Assembly: GCA_018398765.1 (NCBI GenBank)
Contig: JAHBMJ010003498.1
Location: 1 to 64,000, forward strand
DNA from: Chromera velia
Taxonomy: Eukaryota > Sar > Chromeraceae
Direction: 5' to 3'
DNA length: 64,000 nucleotides
Shown here: positions 20,929 through 57,647 of the stretch, in pieces
Numbering within the stretch: position 1 is the stretch's first letter
Layout: each line of letters starts with the position of its first letter
The notes under the pieces: model-generated
The model's database searches: none
Told to the model about the DNA's origin: nothing
What the model saw: only the letters and a program-made list of their open reading frames with translations
Position numbers and translations under genes: made by a program

Positions 20929-23900
20929 ATGTCCGTGCAGGCACTGGTGGCAGCTGCCCGAGAGGGAAAAGAAAAGGAGATTCGTGAACTCGTTCGAAAA
21001 GGCGTCGACGTAGACGGGGTTGCTCAGGTCTGTCTGTCGATCCTGTCAATTCTCCTTCACATTCTTGTCGTTTCTCTGCTCGCTCCTTTCCTGAGTCAAA
21101 TACCAACTCAAATCGTTTTTATCCCTCTTTGCCGTGCTCATGCTTTCAAGTATATACGTATTGTGCACGCTATGCAGCCATTGCACAAAAACAGTTCCAA
21201 TTACCCACCACGCTCTGTTTTCAAGAGGTGCTGCGTCCACTCTCTCTCCGATCTGTTTTGCGATCATTGCAGTACTCGGACGAATGCAGAGGGACTGCAC
21301 TTCACGCAGCGATTTTCGGAGCTGTCTCGAGCGGCCAGCAGGGAGCCCCAGCAGGCGGGGTGACACGAATCAAAGAGACGGCCACAGCACTGGTGGCTCT
21401 CGGGGCAGATCCGTTGAAGAAAGATTCGGTCGGTCAGACAAGGGGTCAGAAGGGAAGGCAAATCGGCAGGCAAGCAAGCACACAGACAAAGAGACAGTGG
21501 CTAGTCCTCTTGGTAAGCTCGCTGGCTAGTAGGTACTCAAACATCTGTTGTCCCCCCTACTTCGCCCGCCCTATTCTTTGGAACTTTTCTCGCGCTTTTT
21601 CGTTCTGTTCTCTTTCACTCATAAGTGTAGATTTTGTTTTGTTTTCCTGATTTGCGCTTGCGCATCTTCTTGATACAGGCAGGACACTCGGTCTTCGGAG
21701 TTGCGGTCCGAGAAAGCGACGACCCTGACGGGGCACTTTTCGCCTTGTCCCTGGAAGAAGCGGCCCACCGTCGTGGGGGAGGGGGGGGGAGTGGAAGAGG
21801 GGCGGGGATGAATGGTGACAGTGGGCAGGGGTCCTCGGGGGGTGGCGGAGGTGGATGGGGTGGGGGCGGGGGATGGGCGAACTCTGAGGCGGTGAGTCTG
21901 TGTGTGCGTGATTTGTGTGAGGAAAGAGGGGAGAAAGTCCCGTCGGCTGAAAGGAAAAAAGAAGCACACTTCTCATCAGTGCAGGGAGGTCGCAATGAAG
22001 AAGAAAGAAATAATGCAGGAACCCTCAGCAGAAAGCCCAAAGTGTCTGACATCGCTGCATTCGTCTTAAATACAGCCTACAAGTGAACAAGGCCCAGCTT
22101 TCATCGAGCAAGGGAAGGAGAGGCGTCCTCCGAGGAAAAGGGAAGGATTCACTCAAGAAGGGGAATTCTTTGCCATACAGATAAAATTCAACTCAATTTG
22201 CATCGGAGCGCGTCTACATGTTACCTTGTTGAGGCCTTTTCTCTTTTTGCGCGTTCACATGGGGAAAAAACATAAAGACACCGCAGCCCCCTCCAAGCCG
22301 GAGCAACAGAAAAAGACAATGAATAAGAAGGAAGGGAGCTGGGTAGATGGCCGCCAGGTGAAGGAAATCATCAGAAAGTATAGATCTGGAAGGGGGTTTC
22401 GGTATGAAGTTGCGTGGCATGGGTGGCAAAGCACATCCCATGAGCCAGCATCACTCATGCGCACGCATGCCCTGCCAGAAGTGAAAGAGTTTGAAAAGAA
22501 GTATCCGTCTTGAGCCTGTTTGCTAGAAATTGGTTCGTTAATTCAACCTGCTCTGCCTGTGCTGACTTGCCGAACGCTAGACACCTAATTATGGGCCGAT
22601 GGCGATGGCGTATGATGATGATGATGATGATGATGATGATGCTTCCTGCTCTCTGTGGTGTTTTTCCACTTCTTCACTCAGGTCAAGGACCCCTCTGCTC
22701 TCCATCTGGCGGCCAAGTATGGTCGTGTCCGGGTTGCCTCTTCATTGGTGGAGAGGGGAGAAGATGTTTGCAAGAGATGGGCAGAGGACGGATGGGTTGG
22801 TCGTGGGAAGGGGAGTGTCTGGAAGTGATTGTTTTTGGCATGCAGGAAGAGTTGTAGAATGTCCGTACTCGAGATATGTTCTTTTCTGTTCTTGTGTCTT
22901 GTTTAAGGTGGGTGGATTCTCAGAAAGTTCATCTTCCTTTCTGGTTTTGAGTTGGGCAGTGTGTGAGGAGGCTGTACATGAATGCCCGTTTAGGCGGCGT
23001 GTGTTCTGGTTGATAGGTGCCGTGGTTGTCATTTTTGTGACAGGAAGGAGACTTTTGGGGGGCTTGGATTCGTTTTTAAGTGTAAAAGATCTACAGTGAC
23101 TCTCATGTATTTTCTCGTTGGTTGTTCTCTTTTTCCGTCAGACAGAGTGACAGCATGGTGTCTTGATGACGGTTTCGTACCGTTTTGTTTTGCTTCCCTT
23201 CAACCTTTTGAGCAAGCACCTTGCTTCCTTTGCAGGGAGGGGGGGATACGCCGTTGGAATTGGCTGTTCGAACAGGGGAGACTGCGGTCGTTCGGGTGTT
23301 GTTGAGTCCGCCTGCTCTGGAGAAGTTAATGAAGGGGGTCGAGGGGGAAACCAAGGTCAGAGGGAGAGGGTGGAGTGACTGTCTTGTATTTGATCGAGGG
23401 TTCGCTCATATCCTTTGGTTTGACGGCTTCTCAGTGTGCTTCTTTTGGTTGGGTGCCTGGTGTGTCAGTGGGGACTCATTTGTGTGAGCTTGAGCGAAGG
23501 TTGACTCCAGCAGCCTCATAAGATGCGTCTTGTCTGATTGGGTTGAGAGTTCGTCCTTTCGTTTGGGTCGAGGGACCCACACCGCATCATGTTGTATGAT
23601 GAAGGTGAAGAGCACGTACTTTCTTGATTGTGAAGACCTTGTGTATTTTCATTCGCCTGCTGAGCAGTCCGACCGAATATTGTTGGGTGCCCAGTTTTGT
23701 TCTGTTCAGTCTCCCTGCCTGCCTCCCTGCCTGCCCGTTTGCCGCTCCACACGTTTCTCCTTGACGACCTTCGCGAACACTTGCAGAGAGTTTCAAGCTG
23801 GGGGTGCAGTTCCGGGGATGGAGGCGCGGAAGCTGCAAGTTCGGTGCTTGCTGATCCCCTTCTGCTGGCTGTCAAGAAGGGAAACTCAGAGGCAGTCGCC

Positions 23901-25022
23901 GTCCTCCTTCAGAGAGGAGCAGACGCAAACGCCAAAAATGGGGTCCGTCCGTGAGTGCACAGAGAGATGGATCGACACACTAAGACATAAATGGAACTGT
24001 CTGGCCAGTCGTGATTGGAGTAGAGAAGTTGTGGAAAGAAAATTCAAGGTGGATTCCTCCGCTTTCTTCACCATTTTCGCCCTTCGACAGCTATTCATTT
24101 TGTCAGCATTTTTTTTCTACTGTGCTTTCTGCTGCCTCCACTGACCTGCCATATTCTTGCGTGCAAAACTGTATGAGTGTGTACATGTAGTTGCATGAGA
24201 GAAAGAGAGGGAGCGTGTGCGCGATAGATAGTTCTTGATGGGCAGCCCCGTTTAATTGTGCATGCACGCAGAAGGGTGAGTCGGCTTTGATTCTCGCTGC
24301 GGCAGGGGGGTTTCTGGAGTGCTGCCGGCCCCTGATGGACAGAGGTGCGAACGTGAACTCGCTTGCTCGGGTCGGTCAAGGATTTTTCAGGAGGGGTGCT
24401 GAAGGGACTGTCTGCTGCTGTTCGCAAGCGGGATGTAGGGCTAGGCTGAAGGAAGGAAGGAAGGAAGGAAGGAGGGAAAGAGGGAAGGAAAGAAGGAAGG
24501 AAGGAAGGAAGGAAGGAAGGAACGAACGAACGAAGAAAATGACGCCTCTTCTTTAGACTGTTGTTGAAATTTGGAAATTGCAAATTTAGTTCCAGTACCC
24601 CAGTCTGAGATTACGCACGTTCTGCACCCAGAGTCAGCTCGAATCTGGTCTTCAAATTCTGTTAAAAACTTTCAGAGGAGAGCAGAGACTCCCTTAATTT
24701 TCTGAAGTCAGAGGAAGCCCCAACAAAGGGACGTGAATTAAAGACGTCGATGCTTTTGCCTGTGTGAATATTTGTCTGACCACCCTCATTGCAGAATGGG
24801 TGGACTCCCCTGGTGGCTGCCCGCGTGAAGGGCCATACTGAGGTCTCAGATCTGCTCGTTGAAAGAGGAGCGAAGGACGACTCGGACTGGCAGGCCCGGT
24901 TCGTCAAGGGAGTCCCATCCGCAGAAGCTGCATGGGGCCCTACAGCGATGCCCACTCCGGAGAACACCGCCCCCCACCCTGACGAACTCGATCTGCAGGA
25001 ACCGCTCTGCAGACCCTATTAG
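20929..25022 (+). CDS. ankyrin-repeat protein, eight exons
   Basis: Exons: 20929-21027, 21273-21428, 21679-21891, 22682-about 22795, 23236-23355, 23787-23942, 24272-24370, 24795-25022; about 394 residues. Every junction is phase 0. Ankyrin signatures appear exon by exon: ALVAAAREGKEKEIRELVRK, GTALHAAIFGAV...LVALGADPL, SALHLAAKYGRVRVASSLVE, DTPLELAVRTGETAVVRVLL, DPLLLAVKKGNSEAVAVLLQ (then RGADANAKNG), SALILAAAGGFLECCRPLMD and TPLVAARVKGHTEVSDLLVE. Exon 3 inserts a glycine-rich linker (RRGGGGGSGRG...GGGGGWGGGGGW). The C-end is acidic and Pro-rich. The likely role is a cytosolic protein-protein scaffold; the partner is unknown. Most donors start GTC (GTCTGT, GTCGGT, GTCAGA, GTCCGT, GTCGGT). The donor after exon 4 (GTTGGT) is the least certain. 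Confidence 0.88.
22259..22513 (+). CDS. chromodomain-like mini-protein inside an ankyrin-gene intron
   Basis: 84-residue single-exon frame. A basic N-tail (MGKKHKDTAAPSKPEQQKKT) is followed by a chromodomain-like block: WVDGRQVKEIIRKYRSGRGF, YEVAWHGWQ, the HEP triad, and a final helix ALPEVKEFEKKY. This matches the W...EI....G...Y.V.W.GW....WEP order, with H in place of the second aromatic W. It lies between ankyrin exons 3 and 4, on the same strand. Chromodomains of this size often come from the C-end of a Ty3-type integrase, so it may be an old retroelement fossil; no LTRs or other pol parts are visible. A host mini-gene or unrecognised exon is the alternative. Confidence 0.5.
   Translation: MGKKHKDTAAPSKPEQQKKTMNKKEGSWVDGRQVKEIIRKYRSGRGFRYEVAWHGWQSTSHEPASLMRTHALPEVKEFEKKYPS
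24445..24535. repeat. (GGAA)n microsatellite
   Basis: AAGG/GGAA tetranucleotide array with AACG variants at its end, inside ankyrin intron 7. Confidence 0.95.
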
Positions 25023-33081: not shown

Positions 33082-36001
33082 TCACATGACCTCGCAGCTT
33101 GACCGCATGGAGTCCCTGACAAGACCCGGAGTCTTCAGCCAGCTCGACCGACGGGAGCTCAGGGACCCCCTTGTCGGCCTCCTGGCACCTTCCAGGGCCC
33201 CGACCGGTGCGTAGACAAACGAGGAAAGGGGGAGTGCCTTGCGGAGTCTCTGGGTGGCCTTCTCACAGGAATTGTGGCACAACAGCGGGCAGTCACCCAC
33301 TCCCAGAGCACGAAAAAATGTACGTCGGGTGCCGAGAAATTTGGGGGAGCAGAGCCCCGCCACGATTTTTTCGATGCCCTCCGGTGTGATGGCCTCGTTC
33401 CCCGAGAGGTCCAAAACGACCAGGCGAGGGAAGTTGGCAAGTCGCTCTGAGAGCTGATGCACGAATTGTTTCTGAATCGATGAGCGGGTCAGTCGGAGAA
33501 CCTCCAGACTGGAATGTTCACCGCACTTCGAAGAGGCAAAGTCGAGGAAACGGAGCAAATACGCACCTCGAGAAAACACCTGCATGCGCGAACACAAAAA
33601 AACAAGAGAGGGCGGATCGAGCAAGTTGATCCCAAGAACAGACAGACATCACGAAGAGACCATGCATCATCATCATGACAGCATTGTTTTTCATCATTTT
33701 CGTGTGCGCAGCTTTTCGCAAGTTGGCCCTGTCCAGGAAGGAAACGAGACGGAAAGTCAAAATCGAAAGACCATAGGAAGAAAAGGGGTTTGGGGTGAGC
33801 GGTGCGAAAGGGACACAAGAGCGAAAGCAAATGCGGAACCGAGAGAGGGCCTCAGAGTCGCAACAGATAAAAATGGGGAGGGGGTCTTACGCACAACCAG
33901 GAAAAGAGTGACATATCCAGAGAGAGGCACAGAATCAGAGGATCTCGGGATCGAGAAAGAGACACGCAGAAAGAAAGAACCGTATGCGAGAAACAACTTA
34001 CCCTGCCTGCTTGGAAGCAATACTAAGAGTGAGAATCCCACTGTGCAGTACTAGCCTCCTGACTGCATGATTCCAGGCTGGCTGGCTGACCGTCTGGCTT
34101 GCTAAGTGACAGACTGACAGACAGACAGACTGACTGACTGACTGACTGACTGACGTTGAGGTCGATGTCATCGAGGTTCACTTTTCTGAGGCTCCAAGCC
34201 ATGTGGATGGCAAAGTCTGAGTAGATGCGAATCACCAGACCTGCATCCATCGGCCGGTGGAAAAACCCCACCCCTGTAGATGCCTCCATCTTTGCTCCGA
34301 CTGCTTCCTTTGGCTTTGTGTCAACGATCAGACCAGCAAAGTCATTCGGACACAGGGGGACTCGGACTGTCTGCTCAAAATCTCGGTAGTCCCTCAACCC
34401 CACCCCATCGTCTGAATCAATCAACTCAATCACACTTTCCGCCTTCTTCTGGCAACTCAAAGCGGTTTCAAGGCGCTGCCACCCTCTCCCGTGGAACGGA
34501 ATCTGTACACCTGGAACCGCAGGGAGGCGGAGGACTGCTGTGCATGGATGGGTTGAGCCAAAGAACAGGTCCATCAGGTGGGCAGCTGCATAGAAGGAGT
34601 ATTCGTCTTCCTCGCACTCAAACTCTCCCTCAACGTCTGGCTGGTACACAGAGCAAAAGTCCCAATACAAGGCAATTCGGCCGTCGTAGCCTTCCTTGAA
34701 ATACGTCACCAGGCGCTCGCACACGCGCCCTGCCAAAATGCCTTGTGGGTCAGGCTCTTTTTTCGAATACCAGGGGGCACTGACAGCAACAAACAGAGCT
34801 GCTTCTTTGGCCTTCCCAAGACAGGTTGGGGCACTCTCCATTGTCTCCAGAAAATCCAGGTCAGTGAAGAAGACCTCGGGGTGCTCTGCCTCTAGAGTTT
34901 GACGTTTACTGATCCCCCTACCCTCCTGCATGTGCTGCACCAATGCGTGACCGTCGAGCAACGCAATCAGTCCCGCACGAGCATTCTCTGTGATGGGCAG
35001 TAGACTCCGGCAACGATAAGTGCTTCTGGACACGACCTGCATGCATGCAGAGGCATTCGAGTCACACGAACAGACAATTCATTCCCGTTTCCTCAGCCAA
35101 TCTTTCCCTCCTCCTACGAAAAGCTCTATGAATTTTCGGATGAATCGTTTCAAATGTAGAATACACACTCCATGATTCAAACGGGGATCTCAAACAACCC
35201 TCCAGACCAGTCCAATCTCCCTTTTTGTGCTTCATCATCACGAACCTCAAACAAGATTCACTCACCTCCGGTATTGCAAAAGGACCTCGTGAAAAAGAGA
35301 AAAATCATTGACACCCGACTAACAGTCTCTACAGCAACTTGCGCCTGCTGTGTTTGCATGCTTTGGTGTCGCTCAGTCTGCCTCGATCCGAACCATGGTT
35401 GAGCGTGCCCGAACACGTATAACTGTACTTCTGTTTTTCTATCCACCTGTCTGCGTATGTGAACATCACCCGCCTTCCAGTCCGCTTTCTCTCTAACCAC
35501 CCCCTCTCTACTTGGCATGCATGCATTTTGACTGACGAATGCGAAGCAAGACCGGCAGAAGAGCGCCTCGCTGTCCAGACAGCCGACAGAGTTGTCCCCC
35601 TTTTTACGACCGCATATGAAGAAGGGGGCGCTCGGAGAAGAAGGGGGGGGAGATATGGAAGATGAAGAGAAGCTCTCTCTCACGGGCGCATCGCAGCATG
35701 CGCACACCCGGTCTTGTCGCTCGGCCTCTGGGACCCACGAAGGGAACTTCTGTAGGGGTTCAGTGACGGCCTCTGCGTGCGTGTGCAGACATTGAGCTAG
35801 GTGTTCTAGGCGCGAGAAATCGTCCATGTTGGCAGGCGGCCCCTCGCTAATGGCCATGGACGGTCTTCTGATTTGGACCTTGACAGCTTCTCTTTTGCTG
35901 TTGTTCTTTTCCTGAGATGCAGCACTGTGGCTGCTCTCATTGTCGGACATGCGGTCCTTTTCAGAGGTGTCTGATTGGACTGTGAGCTCTCGCAACTCCA
36001 T
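33082..36001 (-). CDS. HET/TIR-like domain plus leucine-rich-repeat protein, four exons
   Basis: Exons in transcript order: 36001-35512, 35285-35266, 35036-34155, 33579-33082; 629 residues with matching phases. Exon 1 is Ser/acidic-rich, then a Cys-rich block (VCACCDAPV...FFICGRKKG...LFCRSCFAF) that may bind zinc. Exon 2 is a 20-nt microexon (PFAIPE). Exon 3 holds a domain with AALFVAVSAPWYSKKEPDPQ, GRIALYWDFCSVYQ and GRGWQRLETALS. This order echoes the HET core (SYxW, D..C.NQ, RGWxLQE) and TIR-like folds (inference). Exon 4 is LRR-like: HSSLEVLRLTRSSI, ANFPRLVVLDLSGNEAITPE and GIEKIVAGL. The role may be signalling or NLR-like sensing, but no NTPase is present. Intron 3 begins (GTCA)5. Acceptors of exons 3 and 4 end CATGCAG. 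Confidence 0.75.
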
Positions 36002-42600: not shown

Positions 42601-43920
42601 GACGCGCACCTGAAGAGTTCCGGTGTGCCTCCAGTTGCCAAGCGCCTCCCTTTCCTGCTCGATGCCCTCCACATCTCCCCTTTCCCTTGTGTCAGTCAGT
42701 CAAGTCGCCCTTTCTCTTCTCTGTCTCCTCTCCAATTCCCTCAAGTTTCTTCTGTTGTCCTGTTTATCATCTGTCTAGTTCTGTTCTCTCTCTCCTGCTG
42801 CTCGATGGAACTTGGTGACCGTGTTCACCTCTCATTCATTCTCTCATGGGGGGGGGAAGAAGATCCAAAAAAGGTTGATCAGTGGAATTGAAAAGTTCTC
42901 CGGTAGTATGGATGGGCTGTGGTGTTCGTGCAGAAGGCTTCCGCTCTACCTCGTGTGTCATTGAGTTTGTTCTTATGCATTCATATCTCACACGCAACAA
43001 TGCGGAAACACAGACGGACACAGACGCATGGGCACCTACACACACTCACACATTTTCAGAGAGAAACGCGAGCAGATGCAAAGACTGCCTCTAATACTCA
43101 CATATCACCCACGCATGCTTTTCTTTTGTGCAGAGAATTCGGGGCTTCAAAACTGGAAAAAGGCCCCAAAAGTGAGCAAGCACATTGATAGATGGAATGA
43201 TCAGCCGAGGGAAGGAGTAGATAGATGTCGTCTGCTGGTGAAAGAGGAGATGGATCAATGCAGTTCAGGAAAAGAAAGCACAAGAAGAAGAAGATGCACA
43301 CACAAAGACAGGATCGAGCCAGCCAAAAATATGAGTCCGCACCAAAGTGATAGCCGAAACGAACAAGAAACCGTCTCGCTTCCGCGGTTTACTTGCCTCT
43401 CTGCTGGCACTCAGCTGACTTTCTGCGTGCCCTGGCTTAAGCCCCGAGTCTTCTTCTGTTCCCTTCTCTCGTCCTGCACGCCTGCACTTCCTGGCTCGAC
43501 CTGTATTTGTGTCAATCTTTTTTTCATCATCGTGTTGTCCCTTCCTTATCCTTGCTGCTCATTTTCTTTCTTTGTTTATTTGTTTGTTTCGCTGCTTTCT
43601 TCTTCTTCTTCTTCGTGCAGAAACGACGCCATCTGCTCGATGCAGAGAGTGAAGATCCAGCCGTGGGGTCTCGCGTGGGACTTCGCTTGGTCGTTGGATG
43701 GCGATGACGTGGCGGTGGTTAGTTGGTTGGTTGGTTGGTTTTCTCCTCTGTTTGTCTGTTTGGAGGGAGGGAGAGCTTTTGGGTCTTCTTGAAGTCTGCT
43801 TCCCTCTCTGTCTTCCCGTGTGGTCTTTTTGGTTCTGTCGCTTTCTCAGCAAGTCTCCTGCTGCGGCAACGCCTTTTCTTGTTCTCCTTTTGTTTTGTCC
43901 TTGTTCGCGTGTCACAATTT

Positions 43921-51685: not shown

Positions 51686-53304
51686 ATGTTGATGGTTACG
51701 GGGAGTCAACGAGCTGTTGTGCAAGCGTGCAAGGCTCGTGTCCAGTCTCCCCGTCTCCTCTCGGACTTTCTGTCAGGGAGACGGCAGGGCACAACCAAAA
51801 CCGCGGCGAGCCCGAGCTCTTCCCTCCTCTTCACGCGCTTCGAGCAGAGACGATTCTTCTGGGGATTCGGAAAACGGGTCAGTTGGTAGCCGGAAGAGAT
51901 CTGCGAGTAGTTTTCTCATCCGTCTACATATGCATGCCTCTTCAAACAGAAACCCATGTGGTTTTTCGTATTTCGGACGCTGACTCTTTCTTTGTTCAGG
52001 TCGAAGAGTCTGGGCTTCTCTGTCTCCCAGGACTCCACAAACCCCCAAATTTCCTTCAATTGGCGGAGACGGCCGTGAGAGACGCTGAGGCCATTCTCAA
52101 GGACGCCAACACATCCCCAGGACGCCCTAGAGTGCTGGTCAATGCGCTAGACTCCGTCTCCAATCTCCTATGCAAGGTGGCCGACTCTGCCGAACTAATC
52201 CGGTCAGTGTACTGTAATCCCTGGCTAATGATGAAAGGGACAACAGAAAGACAGGTTGCCTGCCGAAACAGATCGATAACCCGCACGAAACTGAGACACT
52301 GTTGGATGGCAATCTGCATGTGTCGTCTCTTTTTTGGCCCGCACGACGGACCTGCTGCGTACGTCCTGTACGTTTTTCCATGTCCTCCTTTGCGCCATGC
52401 AGAAACGTTCACCCAAAGCGCGAGTGGAGAGATGCGGCTGATCAGGCAGTTGTGCGGGTCTCGAGCTTCATCGACAGTGTGAATCTCGACGAGACGCTGT
52501 ACGAGTCCCTGAGGTCATCTGAGAATTCGTCGGAACTCGGCAGCCTCACTGAGGAGGAGAAAATTGTCAGTCAGTCAGCCAGCTTTCCAAATGGCAGTCT
52601 CTTTCAAATCTTTCTGAAGAAGAAACGAGAAGCATGAGTTCAATTTCGAACTACAGTGCTTGGATGTATCAGCAAAGGTAGTTTCTTGCAATCCAGAATG
52701 TATTTTCCCCCCGCTCTTTGTGCCGGTGGGAGTCCGTCCGTCCGTCTTCCTTTGTTTTGTTTTGCTTTGAGAGAATTATAGCGAAAACCCTTTTCCTCTT
52801 CTTTTTCTTCTTGTTCTTGTTTCTCTCAGGTGCTGAAGAACATGAGGGAAGCGATGGAACAGCAGGGCGTGCACCTGACGGGAGATGCAAAAGTGAGCCC
52901 AGAGGCCCTCCAGATGGAGAAGTCGATTGGCTGCTCTTGCTTTTACTCTCTGCTTCTGAGAACGCCCTGGTGCGTTGCGTAGTAGCCATCCTCTCTTTGG
53001 CATGTTGAGTTTGCTCGACGACGAATGGGAGTCTGTCTGTGCCCCCCCTCTACCCTCCCTTACTTTTCCGTTGTCTCTGGTTTTCCTGCACTTTTCTCTT
53101 TGCAGAATGAATGTCTTTTCCTTCTGGCGAAAAGCACTGAGGTGTGCTTCAGCATCACTTCCCATGATGAGCGGGCATCGAGAGAAACACCAGTGACTGG
53201 AGGGGAGGGGCAGGGTCAGTAGAGACAGACAGAGACCATCGTTGCAAAGCCTGTCTGCGTTTGCAATCTCCTCGACTTTCGCCCCTCCTTTGCTGTCCAT
53301 TCCC

Positions 53305-54045: not shown

Positions 54046-57000
54046 AGGAGCTTTGACTTCCATACTTTCGTGGAGATAACAATGGAATGAAATTCGGTTC
54101 ACACTCTATCTATCCTCTCAGCCTCTTCTTCGCTTTCGCTGCTTCTCCCTTCTCCTTTTTGTTCTCCATAAGTCTCAATCTTCTGCTTCGTTGTCGTTTC
54201 CCTTGCAGAACAAAGAGCAGGGTCTTCTGGAACTCCTCACTTGTCGGCAACGGCTTGCTCAAATGAGGGGGTACCGTGACTGGAAAACATTTGCGCTTCG
54301 GTGAGTTCAGCCGTGTTGTCTTTCCTCTTACCTTTTCATCTTTCTTCTCTCTTGCTTCATCGAAATGAGGAATTTGAAAGCAGTCAAATCTGTGGGGTGC
54401 ATTTGTGGTCTTCCGCATGTCTGCTCTATGTGCCTGCATGCTGGGCATAAATTTTCCGTCTTCTCTCATTGGGGCCAAATCTTCTCATGTTTTCTATGTG
54501 TCCATTCTCTGTCTTTTTCTGTTGTGCCTGCAGCGAGTCTGTAGTGAGGCAACCTGAGTGTGTGGTGCACTTTCTTCGGAAGTGTGTCACGATGCTGGAG
54601 GTATGTGGGAAGGCTTCTGTGTGTCGCAGTCGAGTTTCTTTTTATTCATAGTTGTCTCCGACGTTGGGATAGCGAAAGTTGCGAGAAAGAACTTCTCTCC
54701 GAACACCCCAGCTGTATTCTGGAAGGAAACGATTGGATGCATGAAAGCGCGTCCATGAGCCTGCGATTCTCTGGGATTCCTGTTTTGCTTTTTCGTAGGA
54801 GTTTTGCCCTTTGTATCTTTAAAGTCTCATGCCGATCTGTGAAGTGCCTTCTGTCTCAGCCTGACTTGTTTCATGAACGCAGAAGGGTCTTGTAGAGGAA
54901 CTGAGAGCTTTGGCTGCTCTGAAGGCAGACTTGAGACGGGAGAGAGGAGAGGGGGACGGGGAGACTCTGGGAGTTCTCTGTCCTTGGGACATCCCCTTTC
55001 TCACATCGGTATACAAGGACAGACACTTCAGGGATGTGGCCTCTGAAATGCAGTCAGTCAGACAGGCAGGCACACAGGCAGGCAATGTTTCCAGCTTGCT
55101 TTCATTCTTTTGCCTCCAGAATCGACAACAGAGTCAAAGAACTTGTGCATTTTTGGCTCGATCGGACGTTTTTGTGTCCATGGAGCGGATCAAAAAGACA
55201 CAGTTGGCATCCCCTATGAGAGGAAGCCAAAAACCAAACAGACAGCCCAAGCAGAGCTTTTTGACGGAAAGAAAAGAATGCTGGGATATCTTTGTGGCTC
55301 ATTGTTGCGCAGTGTCGACGTGTTTTCTGTGAGTGAGTGAGTGAGTGAGTGAGTGAGTGAGTGAGTGAGTGATGACTAGGGTTGTCACGGGGCCAAATCT
55401 CCGTCCTTGTTGTATACCTCACCTCAGTCGCCCGTTGTTTGGGAATCCTGCCTAGAGGAATCACCTTTGGTTGCCGATGAAAAGCTCCATTGGTCCCAAT
55501 GCTCGCTTGCACTCATGCATGGATCATGTCGTTGTTGTCTGCAGAAATTTCCTGAGTCTGCAGAGTCTGTTGGACGGTGTCCAAGTCGCTTTCCGTTCTC
55601 TTTTTGGTCTGGAACTTCACAGAGAGATTCCCTTGGAAGGAGAAGTCTGGCACTTCTCCGTCCTTAAATATTCAGTCAGGGACCCTTCAAGAAAAGAGGG
55701 ACAGGCCCTGGGGACTCTGTACCTAGACCTCTTCTCCCGATTTCCGAAGAACATTCCCTCAGCCCAGTTCACTCTCGTCTGCTCCAAAGATCTGAGCTAC
55801 GAGAGGGAAAGGGAATGGCCTGTGGGGGGGTCTCTTGGAAAGATGCACGTGATTAACATCGAGGGATTTTCTGAAACCGCACCGAGTACACAGGAAGGTG
55901 AAGCCAATCAGCAAAAGAGACCTTGGCAGATGCCTGCGACTGCTCTGGTGAGCGACTTCTACCTTGACCCCTCTGCTTTTCCTCAGGGTCTTCCTGAAGA
56001 CAGCAGAGACCGAGAGAAGACCTTGGGGGAACTTCTTCGAACAACGCGACTGAATGTCTCGTCAGGTGGGATTGAGCACACATACACATGAACGTACAGA
56101 TAGATACACTTGTCTCTGAGCACACAAGTCCGAGTCTCTCCATTCTCCATCGTTCGGCAAGACTTACCGAGTGGTCAATTGTTGTGAGGATTTTTTCAGA
56201 AAGGGGCGGAGAGGCGTTGAGGAAATATTGTGGCATCCTGTCTTCTTTGAGAGTTTTCTTCTCTTCTGCGTCTCTCCGGACACCCTTGAATGTTCGGGTT
56301 GATCCCCCTTCTTGTCTCTTTTTTCTTTTTCTCAATGACATCTTTCTTCGTCTTCTCTCTCTCCCTCCCTCCCTCTCCCTCCCTCTCCCTTCTTCTCCCT
56401 CTTCCGCCCTCTCCCTCTTCCGCCCTCTCCCTCCATCTCCCTCTCTCGCCCTCCCTCTCCCTCCCTCGTTTTGCCTTCCTTAACTCGCTTTCCAGCTCTA
56501 ACGCAGATGCTGTCCTGTAAACTTGCGCATCTGCAGGCCGCACGCACTCTTGAATGGTCGCTGAGCAGCGCATTTGTACAAAAGAAGGGCATCTGTGCAT
56601 TAAGCAAATCCCGGACTACTCTTAAATTTTCTCTTTTTGTGTCTTTTCCATCTTGCAGCGAAGACTTTTTTCCACGAACTCGGCCACGTGACTCACTCTC
56701 TCCTCTCTCGAACGAACCTCCAACATCTGGCAGGCACGAGGGGAGCGATCGATTTCGTGGAGTTTCCCTCTCACCTCTTTGAACACTTTGTGACAGACCC
56801 TGGGTGCTTGAAGATGTTCGCTCGAGACGCGCAGGGCAACCCCCCATCAGAGGATTTGCTCGGACGATTCTCGAAAGGGAGACATCTGTTTGGACATCTG
56901 GAAGCAATGCAACAAGTCGTCTACGCACTTGCTGACCAGGTCAGTCAGTCAGTCAGTCAGTCAGTCAGTCAGACAAGACGAAGCATGACTTTAGGATGGA

Positions 57001-57140: not shown

Positions 57141-57647
57141 CGTGTCAAGTTTTTTCGTGGCCTGTCTGTCGGTCTACCTATTTGTTTCTCTGCTGCAGAG
57201 GTGACTGAATCCTGCTTTGGAGTCTGCCTTTCCTTTCAAGGATTGTCCACTCGATTTCGCTCGCTCCCCTGTGCCTGCAGGCCTTCTACTCGATTGAGCT
57301 GTCTGCAGACGGCCAGAGTGTGCAGCTGGAACCCGGGCGGCTGCAGAAGCACATAGAGGAAAGCCTCGGCAGAGAGGCCGTCTTAGGAGAGACCCCAAGG
57401 GGAGTACCCTCTCAGGGCACGGTGGTGGACCTGGTGGGGCTGCCTGCGATGACATCCTTCGACCACCTGGTGCACTATGGGGGCAGCTACTATTGCTACA
57501 TTTTCTGCAGGTGAGTGAGCTAGGTGCATGGGGAGGTGAGGGGAGTTGGAGATTGGTCGGTCTCTCTGCCCTGTCTTTCGTTCATCTTTCTCTCTGTCTC
57601 TGTCTCTGTCTCCCTCGCTCTCTCTCTCTCTCTCTTTCTCTTTTTTT

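Follow-up and report, generated by a model that had tools for sequence, protein, structure and literature searches.

Several introns in a stretch of 64,000 nucleotides of the Chromera velia genome (contig JAHBMJ010003498.1, positions 1 to 64,000 of the forward strand; here called the window) appear to begin at the first unit of a tetranucleotide array such as (GTCA)n or (GTCT)n. This raises the question of whether introns of this organism start in such repeats beyond chance and, if so, whether the arrays grow from the splice donors, are a way in which new introns grow, or serve as a set of alternative donors four bases apart.

Repeats at candidate donors in the window

The original prediction placed a donor at the first unit of an array at seven sites, and (GTCA), (GTCT) or (GTCC) repeats are indeed read at all seven. 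Two of them, on the forward strand in an M3 peptidase gene, can be judged by homology. At 55053..55060, (GTCA)2 gives way to a stretch of imperfect period 4 (GACA/GGCA), and joining the first unit to the acceptor before the exon at 55545 gives 64.0 bits with Peptidase_M3, against 50.2 bits for the alternative at +4. At 56940..56971, (GTCA)8 stands behind the exon end CAG, the next exon begins at 57281, and the Peptidase_M3 score is 74.3 bits with the first unit and 70.0 with the unit at +12. In both cases the homology fits the first unit best as the putative donor. For (GTCA)3 at 52566..52577 in the same gene (exon end ATT), no Pfam match was obtained across the junction; the reading frame stays open and in phase across to the next exon, at 52830, and an ab initio gene finder that works without a donor motif likewise closes the exon at 52565. 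To judge from its letters (GTGAGTGAG), (GTGA)2 at 57511..57518, behind the exon end CAG, is a further likely tandem donor of this gene, absent from the original prediction. One peptidase intron also holds (GTGA)11 at 55329-55372, in sense orientation and away from the donor.

The two ankyrin sites are likewise on the forward strand. (GTCC)2 at 23943..23950 lies behind the exon end GGG, and its first unit joined to the exon at 24272 gives unbroken ankyrin repeats (Ank_2, 42.0 bits). (GTCT)2 at 21028..21035, behind CAG, is consistent with the frame, and the joined protein has a weak ankyrin score of only 20.9 bits, below the Pfam cut-offs. With the same acceptor, the unit at +4 or +8 would shift the frame at either site. 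On the reverse strand, (GTCA)6 followed by GTCT and GTCA units spans 34107..34154 (array span by TRF) at an intron start of a HET-LRR-like gene. The candidate donor at 34154, with the exon end AAC, leaves the two flanking exons in phase when the first unit is used, with an acceptor before 33579 that is deduced from the frame. Pfam scores do not separate the first unit from +12 at this site, and the gene finder disagrees, ending the exon at 34147, eight bases inside the array, with a different acceptor. The seventh site, (GTCA)3 at 42691..42702 on the forward strand in the so-called giant gene, is a candidate read from the letters. The donors proposed at 55053, 56940, 23943 and 52566 are supported by Pfam scores, ankyrin continuity or frame and gene finder; the one at 21028 is weak, and those at 34154 and 42691 stay candidates. 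The gene finder was run on about 260 kb, where the coding signal was too weak with the training used, and is excluded from the counts.

Introns chosen without regard to repeats

The genome sequence searched comprises 178 Mb in 4040 contigs, with a G+C content near 50%; the Chromera velia assembly has been described as 193.66 Mb in 5953 scaffolds, with abundant low-complexity sequence (PMC4501334). Exons of kinesin, myosin and dynein (AAA_6) genes were located genome-wide by profile, and part of the loci was taken: 29 kinesin genes of 134 matches, 10 stretches of myosin and, for dynein, 27 of 38 picked junctions. Adjacent exon matches with a profile gap above 14 were left out. Protein kinase genes were dropped as a source of introns, most of their adjacent matches apparently lying in one open frame and representing inserts rather than introns; several kinase domains seem to carry such inserts between two matched halves of a single open frame.

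Junctions were placed by protein profile score alone, with GT or GCAAG as donor and AG as acceptor, and with the donor motif unscored. The profiles derive from these very loci, and the scores are therefore relative only. Out of 92 junctions attempted, 69 are confident (kinesin 34, dynein 25, myosin 10), 14 are ambiguous (margin below 3 bits, kept out of the main counts) and 9 gave no call; one of the 69, dynein junction C1340, was set by visual inspection and has a nominal margin. The intron statistics cover one genome and three gene families, with 44 introns available whole. Established by computation are the junctions by homology, the donor consensus, the start of arrays at the exon border, copying at lag 4, the excess in orientation, the differences between paralogs and the 5' end of U1.

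At least two identical GTNN units stand at the start of 13 of the 69 confident introns, about one intron in five of the conserved genes tested, and at least three in 4. The units are GTCA, GTCT, GTCG and GTTG, to which the window adds GTCC and GTGA. Tandem donors occur in kinesin (8/34) and dynein (5/25) genes and in none of the 10 myosin introns. The result holds when the ambiguous junctions are added (17/83) and under stricter margins, with 12/62 at 6 bits and 10/41 at 9 bits. All 13 arrays start exactly at the exon border: runs beginning at offset 0 number 13, and those elsewhere between -12 and +19 together number 6. With the 4 donors that start in GTGT set aside, tandem units are found at 13/65 donors, while the remaining sense GTs of these introns have them in 22/780 cases (Fisher p 4e-7), an excess of about sevenfold at donors; with the same exclusion, the other backgrounds give 20/564 for antisense GTs, 4/335 for exonic GTs and 240/16825 for GTs from a genome sample. 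Identical four-base units in tandem beyond chance are one mark of a tetranucleotide microsatellite, and the observation that introns start in such repeats is confirmed and not peculiar to the window.

Donor consensus and copying of the unit

The donor consensus in this set is a relaxed GTNNGT, in which +3 and +4 are little constrained, against the usual GTRAGT (PMC1779574). Among the 69 donors, G is found at -1 in 52, at +5 in 60, and T at +6 in 44; position +3 is C in 29, G in 19, A in 12 and T in 9, and +4 is A in 24, T in 19, G in 16 and C in 10. Preferences continue past the usual consensus, with C at +7 in 37, G at +9 in 36, G at +13 in 35 and T at +14 in 32. The full GTNNGT, which has a second GY exactly four bases on and is thus a GYNNGY site, is present in 44/69. 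An exon end in AG and an A at +4 tend to avoid each other (both 9, AG only 30, A only 15, neither 15; p 0.024). Among the tandem donors, 1/8 with GTCA units and 5/5 with other units have an AG exon end (p 0.005, for a split made post hoc). A single non-GT donor occurs among the 69, that of the GC-AG kinesin intron C1717_2, which reads GCAAGT behind the exon end cag.

The repeats at donors reflect copying of the unit, beyond a shared consensus. In the 44 whole introns, identity at lag 4 climbs from 0.26 at bases -24 to -5 to a value of 0.51 at the donor, falls to 0.34 by +60 to +80, and lies between 0.32 and 0.39 from +80 inward. Over +7 to +28, 590 lag-4 matches were counted versus 340 expected from column composition (SD 15), whereas lags 3 and 5 are at expectation. 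The excess is also present in the 56 donors that lack a perfect tandem (453 versus 264, SD 14), as expected from decayed arrays. Towards the other end of the intron, lag-4 identity rises weakly in the last 40 bases (0.40, versus 0.32-0.38 further in), and some acceptor ends carry CTGC or CTGT units running towards CAG.

From this pattern we infer replication slippage as the mutational cause, with cutting at the first unit in the living cell and neutrality of the added units. Slippage from the donor's own unit, harmless if the first unit is cut, is the best explanation of the data and a probable one. Because GTNNGT amounts to one and a half copies of a GTNN unit, the donor would be its own, ready-made slippage seed. 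Replication slippage would duplicate the unit downstream, into the intron, and the duplication would be neutral provided that the cut falls at the first GT, since the exon is then untouched, while the exon side would be guarded by its coding function. The array would begin at the border because copying on the intron side leaves the exon intact, and would fade over some 40-60 intron bases and decay by substitution. Slippage and neutrality together would explain why arrays start at the border and keep to one register, why they fade, and why units vary and paralogs differ. The idea that arrays grow from donors had been put forward in the original prediction, as had the sharing of one unit by donor motif and array; the copying at lag 4 and not at 3 or 5, the start at the border and the genome-wide excess in donor orientation described below speak for the former, and the copying of units at donors bears out the latter.

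The pairing of these donors with U1 bears on a different reading. The 5' end of U1 RNA is canonical (AAACUUACCUG); AAACTTACCTG forms the 5' end of the sole U1 above the cut-off and of one weaker copy, and a third U1-like match begins at model position 12. A U1 altered to pair with C at +3 was rejected, its 5' end being unchanged, and the C at +3 is therefore a true mismatch. Both weaker U1-like copies, of which the first keeps its 5' end whole and the other is matched without it, may be variants or pseudogenes.

The repeat could, in principle, be a functional extension of the 5' splice signal, in which additional registers for U1, U6 or another factor offset the mismatch at +3 and selection keeps the G at +9 and +13. 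The mismatch is real, given the canonical U1; the G at +9 (36/69) and +13 (35/69) lies outside the usual U1 pairing, and a register-locked period of 4 is seen in the 56 non-tandem donors too. This reading is nevertheless unlikely, since the copying occurs within introns and not through a shared consensus alone, paralogs differ in their unit at one and the same intron position, and about half of the donors have no G at +9.

Coincidence and arrays across the genome

A repeat-rich genome, together with the need for GT at +5 and +6, might also place some repeats on donors by coincidence. Intronic lag-4 identity does exceed 0.25 away from the donors (the 0.32 to 0.39 found from +80), (GTCA)n is frequent in the genome, and two controls that retain GTGT runs show no excess: given GTNNGT, tandems were found in 8/26 versus 56/161 when GTGT runs were counted as tandem, and at least 11 of 20 lag-4 matches in 20/69 versus 176/772 (p 0.24) when GTGT runs were kept and long arrays counted repeatedly. 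Against this stand the enrichment of tandems at donors, which with GTGT left out is roughly sevenfold relative to the remaining sense GTs of these introns, and permutation within donors, which yields a mean of 5.5 tandems among the 44 GTNNGT donors where 13 are observed (p 0.0007).

The orientation of arrays genome-wide points the same way. AG directly precedes (GTCA)3 at 650/4890 G-phase starts (13.3%), as opposed to 90/3222 (2.8%) for AG before (GACT)3, its antisense equivalent, and 173/3059 C-phase starts (5.7%) for TC before (CAGT)3, a reversed control in the same orientation; for GTCT, AG precedes (GTCT)3 551 times and (GACA)3 242 times. Arrays in donor orientation start behind AG more often than the controls. 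Coincidence is therefore very unlikely and already mostly refuted. Since most G-phase (GTCA)3 is not preceded by AG, many arrays may have other origins. The enrichment of repeats at intron starts that the original prediction would lead one to expect is found at donors (13/65 versus 22/780), and the arrays behind AG (650 versus 90 antisense) agree with it.

Choice of the unit to be cut

All 13 confident tandem donors sit at the first unit, 12 of them as placed by the donor-blind protein score and 1 by eye. The homology thus fits the first unit as the predicted cutting site, in keeping with the suggestion that splicing picks it. Each extra unit had also been taken to be a candidate donor shifted by 4 nt, and the inner GTNN units bear this out. 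In a GTCA array, use of +4 or +8 would shift the frame and use of +12 would add VSQS, and sense (GTCA)n is free of stops in all frames.

Pairing with U1 was compared at 24 sites, namely the 7 cited window sites and 17 junctions from the intron set, some of them ambiguous. By a match count in fixed register, the first unit is better than the second at 21 sites and equal at 3. In duplex energy, where the exon ends in G, the first unit ranges from -4.4 to -9.5 and the second from -6.5 to +0.5 kcal/mol. The first unit pairs better with U1 at exons ending in G, above all in CAG, because the inner units are preceded by letters of the repeat itself at -3 to -1. Where the exon ends in another letter, as at 34154, 52566, 55053 and 42691, the energy advantage of the first unit is small or absent; by the same measure, the second unit is better at junction C46_1 (-4.6 versus -1.8) and slightly better at 52566 and 42691.

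Such sites, where U1 energy barely favours the first unit, and the frame shifts that the inner candidate donors would cause at +4 and +8 in a GTCA array, are what one would expect if tandem units were used for regulated frame-shifted isoforms. This use is highly improbable in view of the fit of homology to the first unit in 13/13 cases and of the situation in mammals, where splicing at GYNNGY sites is described as chiefly noise (PMC4267661; PMC2423196).

Age of the arrays

Paralogs that share an intron position differ in the state of their donors. At kinesin profile position 291, phase 0, an intron common to six paralogs starts with GTCTGTCTG, GCAAGT, GTGCGTCT, GTCTGCCTG, GTTTGTGTG and GTTGGTCA; all six starts differ, the perfect tandem being GTCTGTCTG, with one near-tandem. 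Likewise, for 5 of the 13 tandem donors the intron position is shared by paralogs without a tandem. Because the tandem state varies among paralogs at one intron position, the arrays look younger than the introns, and the proposal that they are how new introns grow is not supported. Overall, the interpretation given in the original prediction is partly supported.

No change in the length of a donor array was found in two aligned pairs of paralogs (about 90% identical over the aligned part), and slippage is for this reason deduced rather than caught in the act. In these pairs, one donor differs by substitution (GTCAGTCA versus GTGAGTCA). The duplicated kinesin genes (90% identical over the aligned part) have a second donor-like GTCAGTCAGTGA, outside the counted set, that is unchanged in both. 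In the aligned myosin pair, a substitution at +6 separates the two donors, and the 4 bases inserted or deleted close to the acceptor do not make up a tandem unit. A tandem of two units can arise or vanish by substitution alone.

That the introns are introner-like or made from repeats is extremely improbable and already disfavoured, even with a unit common to donor and repeat and with introners known in the dinoflagellate Amoebophrya (PMC7789003), since an all-against-all comparison of the 44 whole introns found no long sequence shared between introns of unrelated genes, its sole match above 52 bases being the duplicated myosin pair (203 bases, 85%), and five tandem donors are at positions shared by paralogs.

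Comparison with known systems and implications

A close parallel is found in the mammalian GYNNGY (delta-4) donors, reported at 52,887 plus 5,211 of 113,356 human constitutive sites (PMC2423196). As in Chromera velia, two GY donors lie four bases apart and use of the second shifts the frame. In mammals, however, the second GY comes from GTRAGT, whereas here the whole unit is copied (2-8 units in the 13 cases, at least 3 in 4 of them) and C is frequent at +3. The arrays also resemble intronic tetranucleotide microsatellites, in that perfect and interrupted period-4 arrays fade by substitution, and depart from ordinary ones in a start locked to the exon border, in the donor register and in their orientation.

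Introner elements, described in Amoebophrya, Micromonas and Aureococcus (PMC7789003), likewise involve repeats at the ends of protist introns; the introns considered here differ from them in lacking long common sequence between unrelated genes, in their GT-AG ends and in positions that paralogs have in common. Intron gain by tandem genomic duplication (PMC4974935) is similar in that a tandem duplication involves a splice motif, but the duplication proposed here takes place within an intron already present and adds none. Among the literature matches listed on splicing and repeats, no paper on tetranucleotide arrays seeded by donors was found.

Growth of the arrays by slippage from the donor would connect a mutational process with the 5' splice site as a functional signal. 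It can be extended, speculatively and with more doubt than confidence, to a picture in which the relaxed GTNNGT is a genome-wide birthplace of tetranucleotide repeats whose units feed back on splicing: they would help to tolerate the mismatch at +3, make an AG at the exon end less necessary and perhaps form a landing strip for U1 or U6 in several registers, so that the consensus has drifted to a self-copying form. For gene predictors, the inner units are a warning, as they act as decoy donors within sense (GTCA)n that has no stops. If slippage from the donor is true, splice donors would be a standing source of microsatellites, the donor consensus could shift towards a self-copying form, and the introns of Chromera velia would offer a natural test of how the spliceosome chooses among near-identical sites four bases apart.
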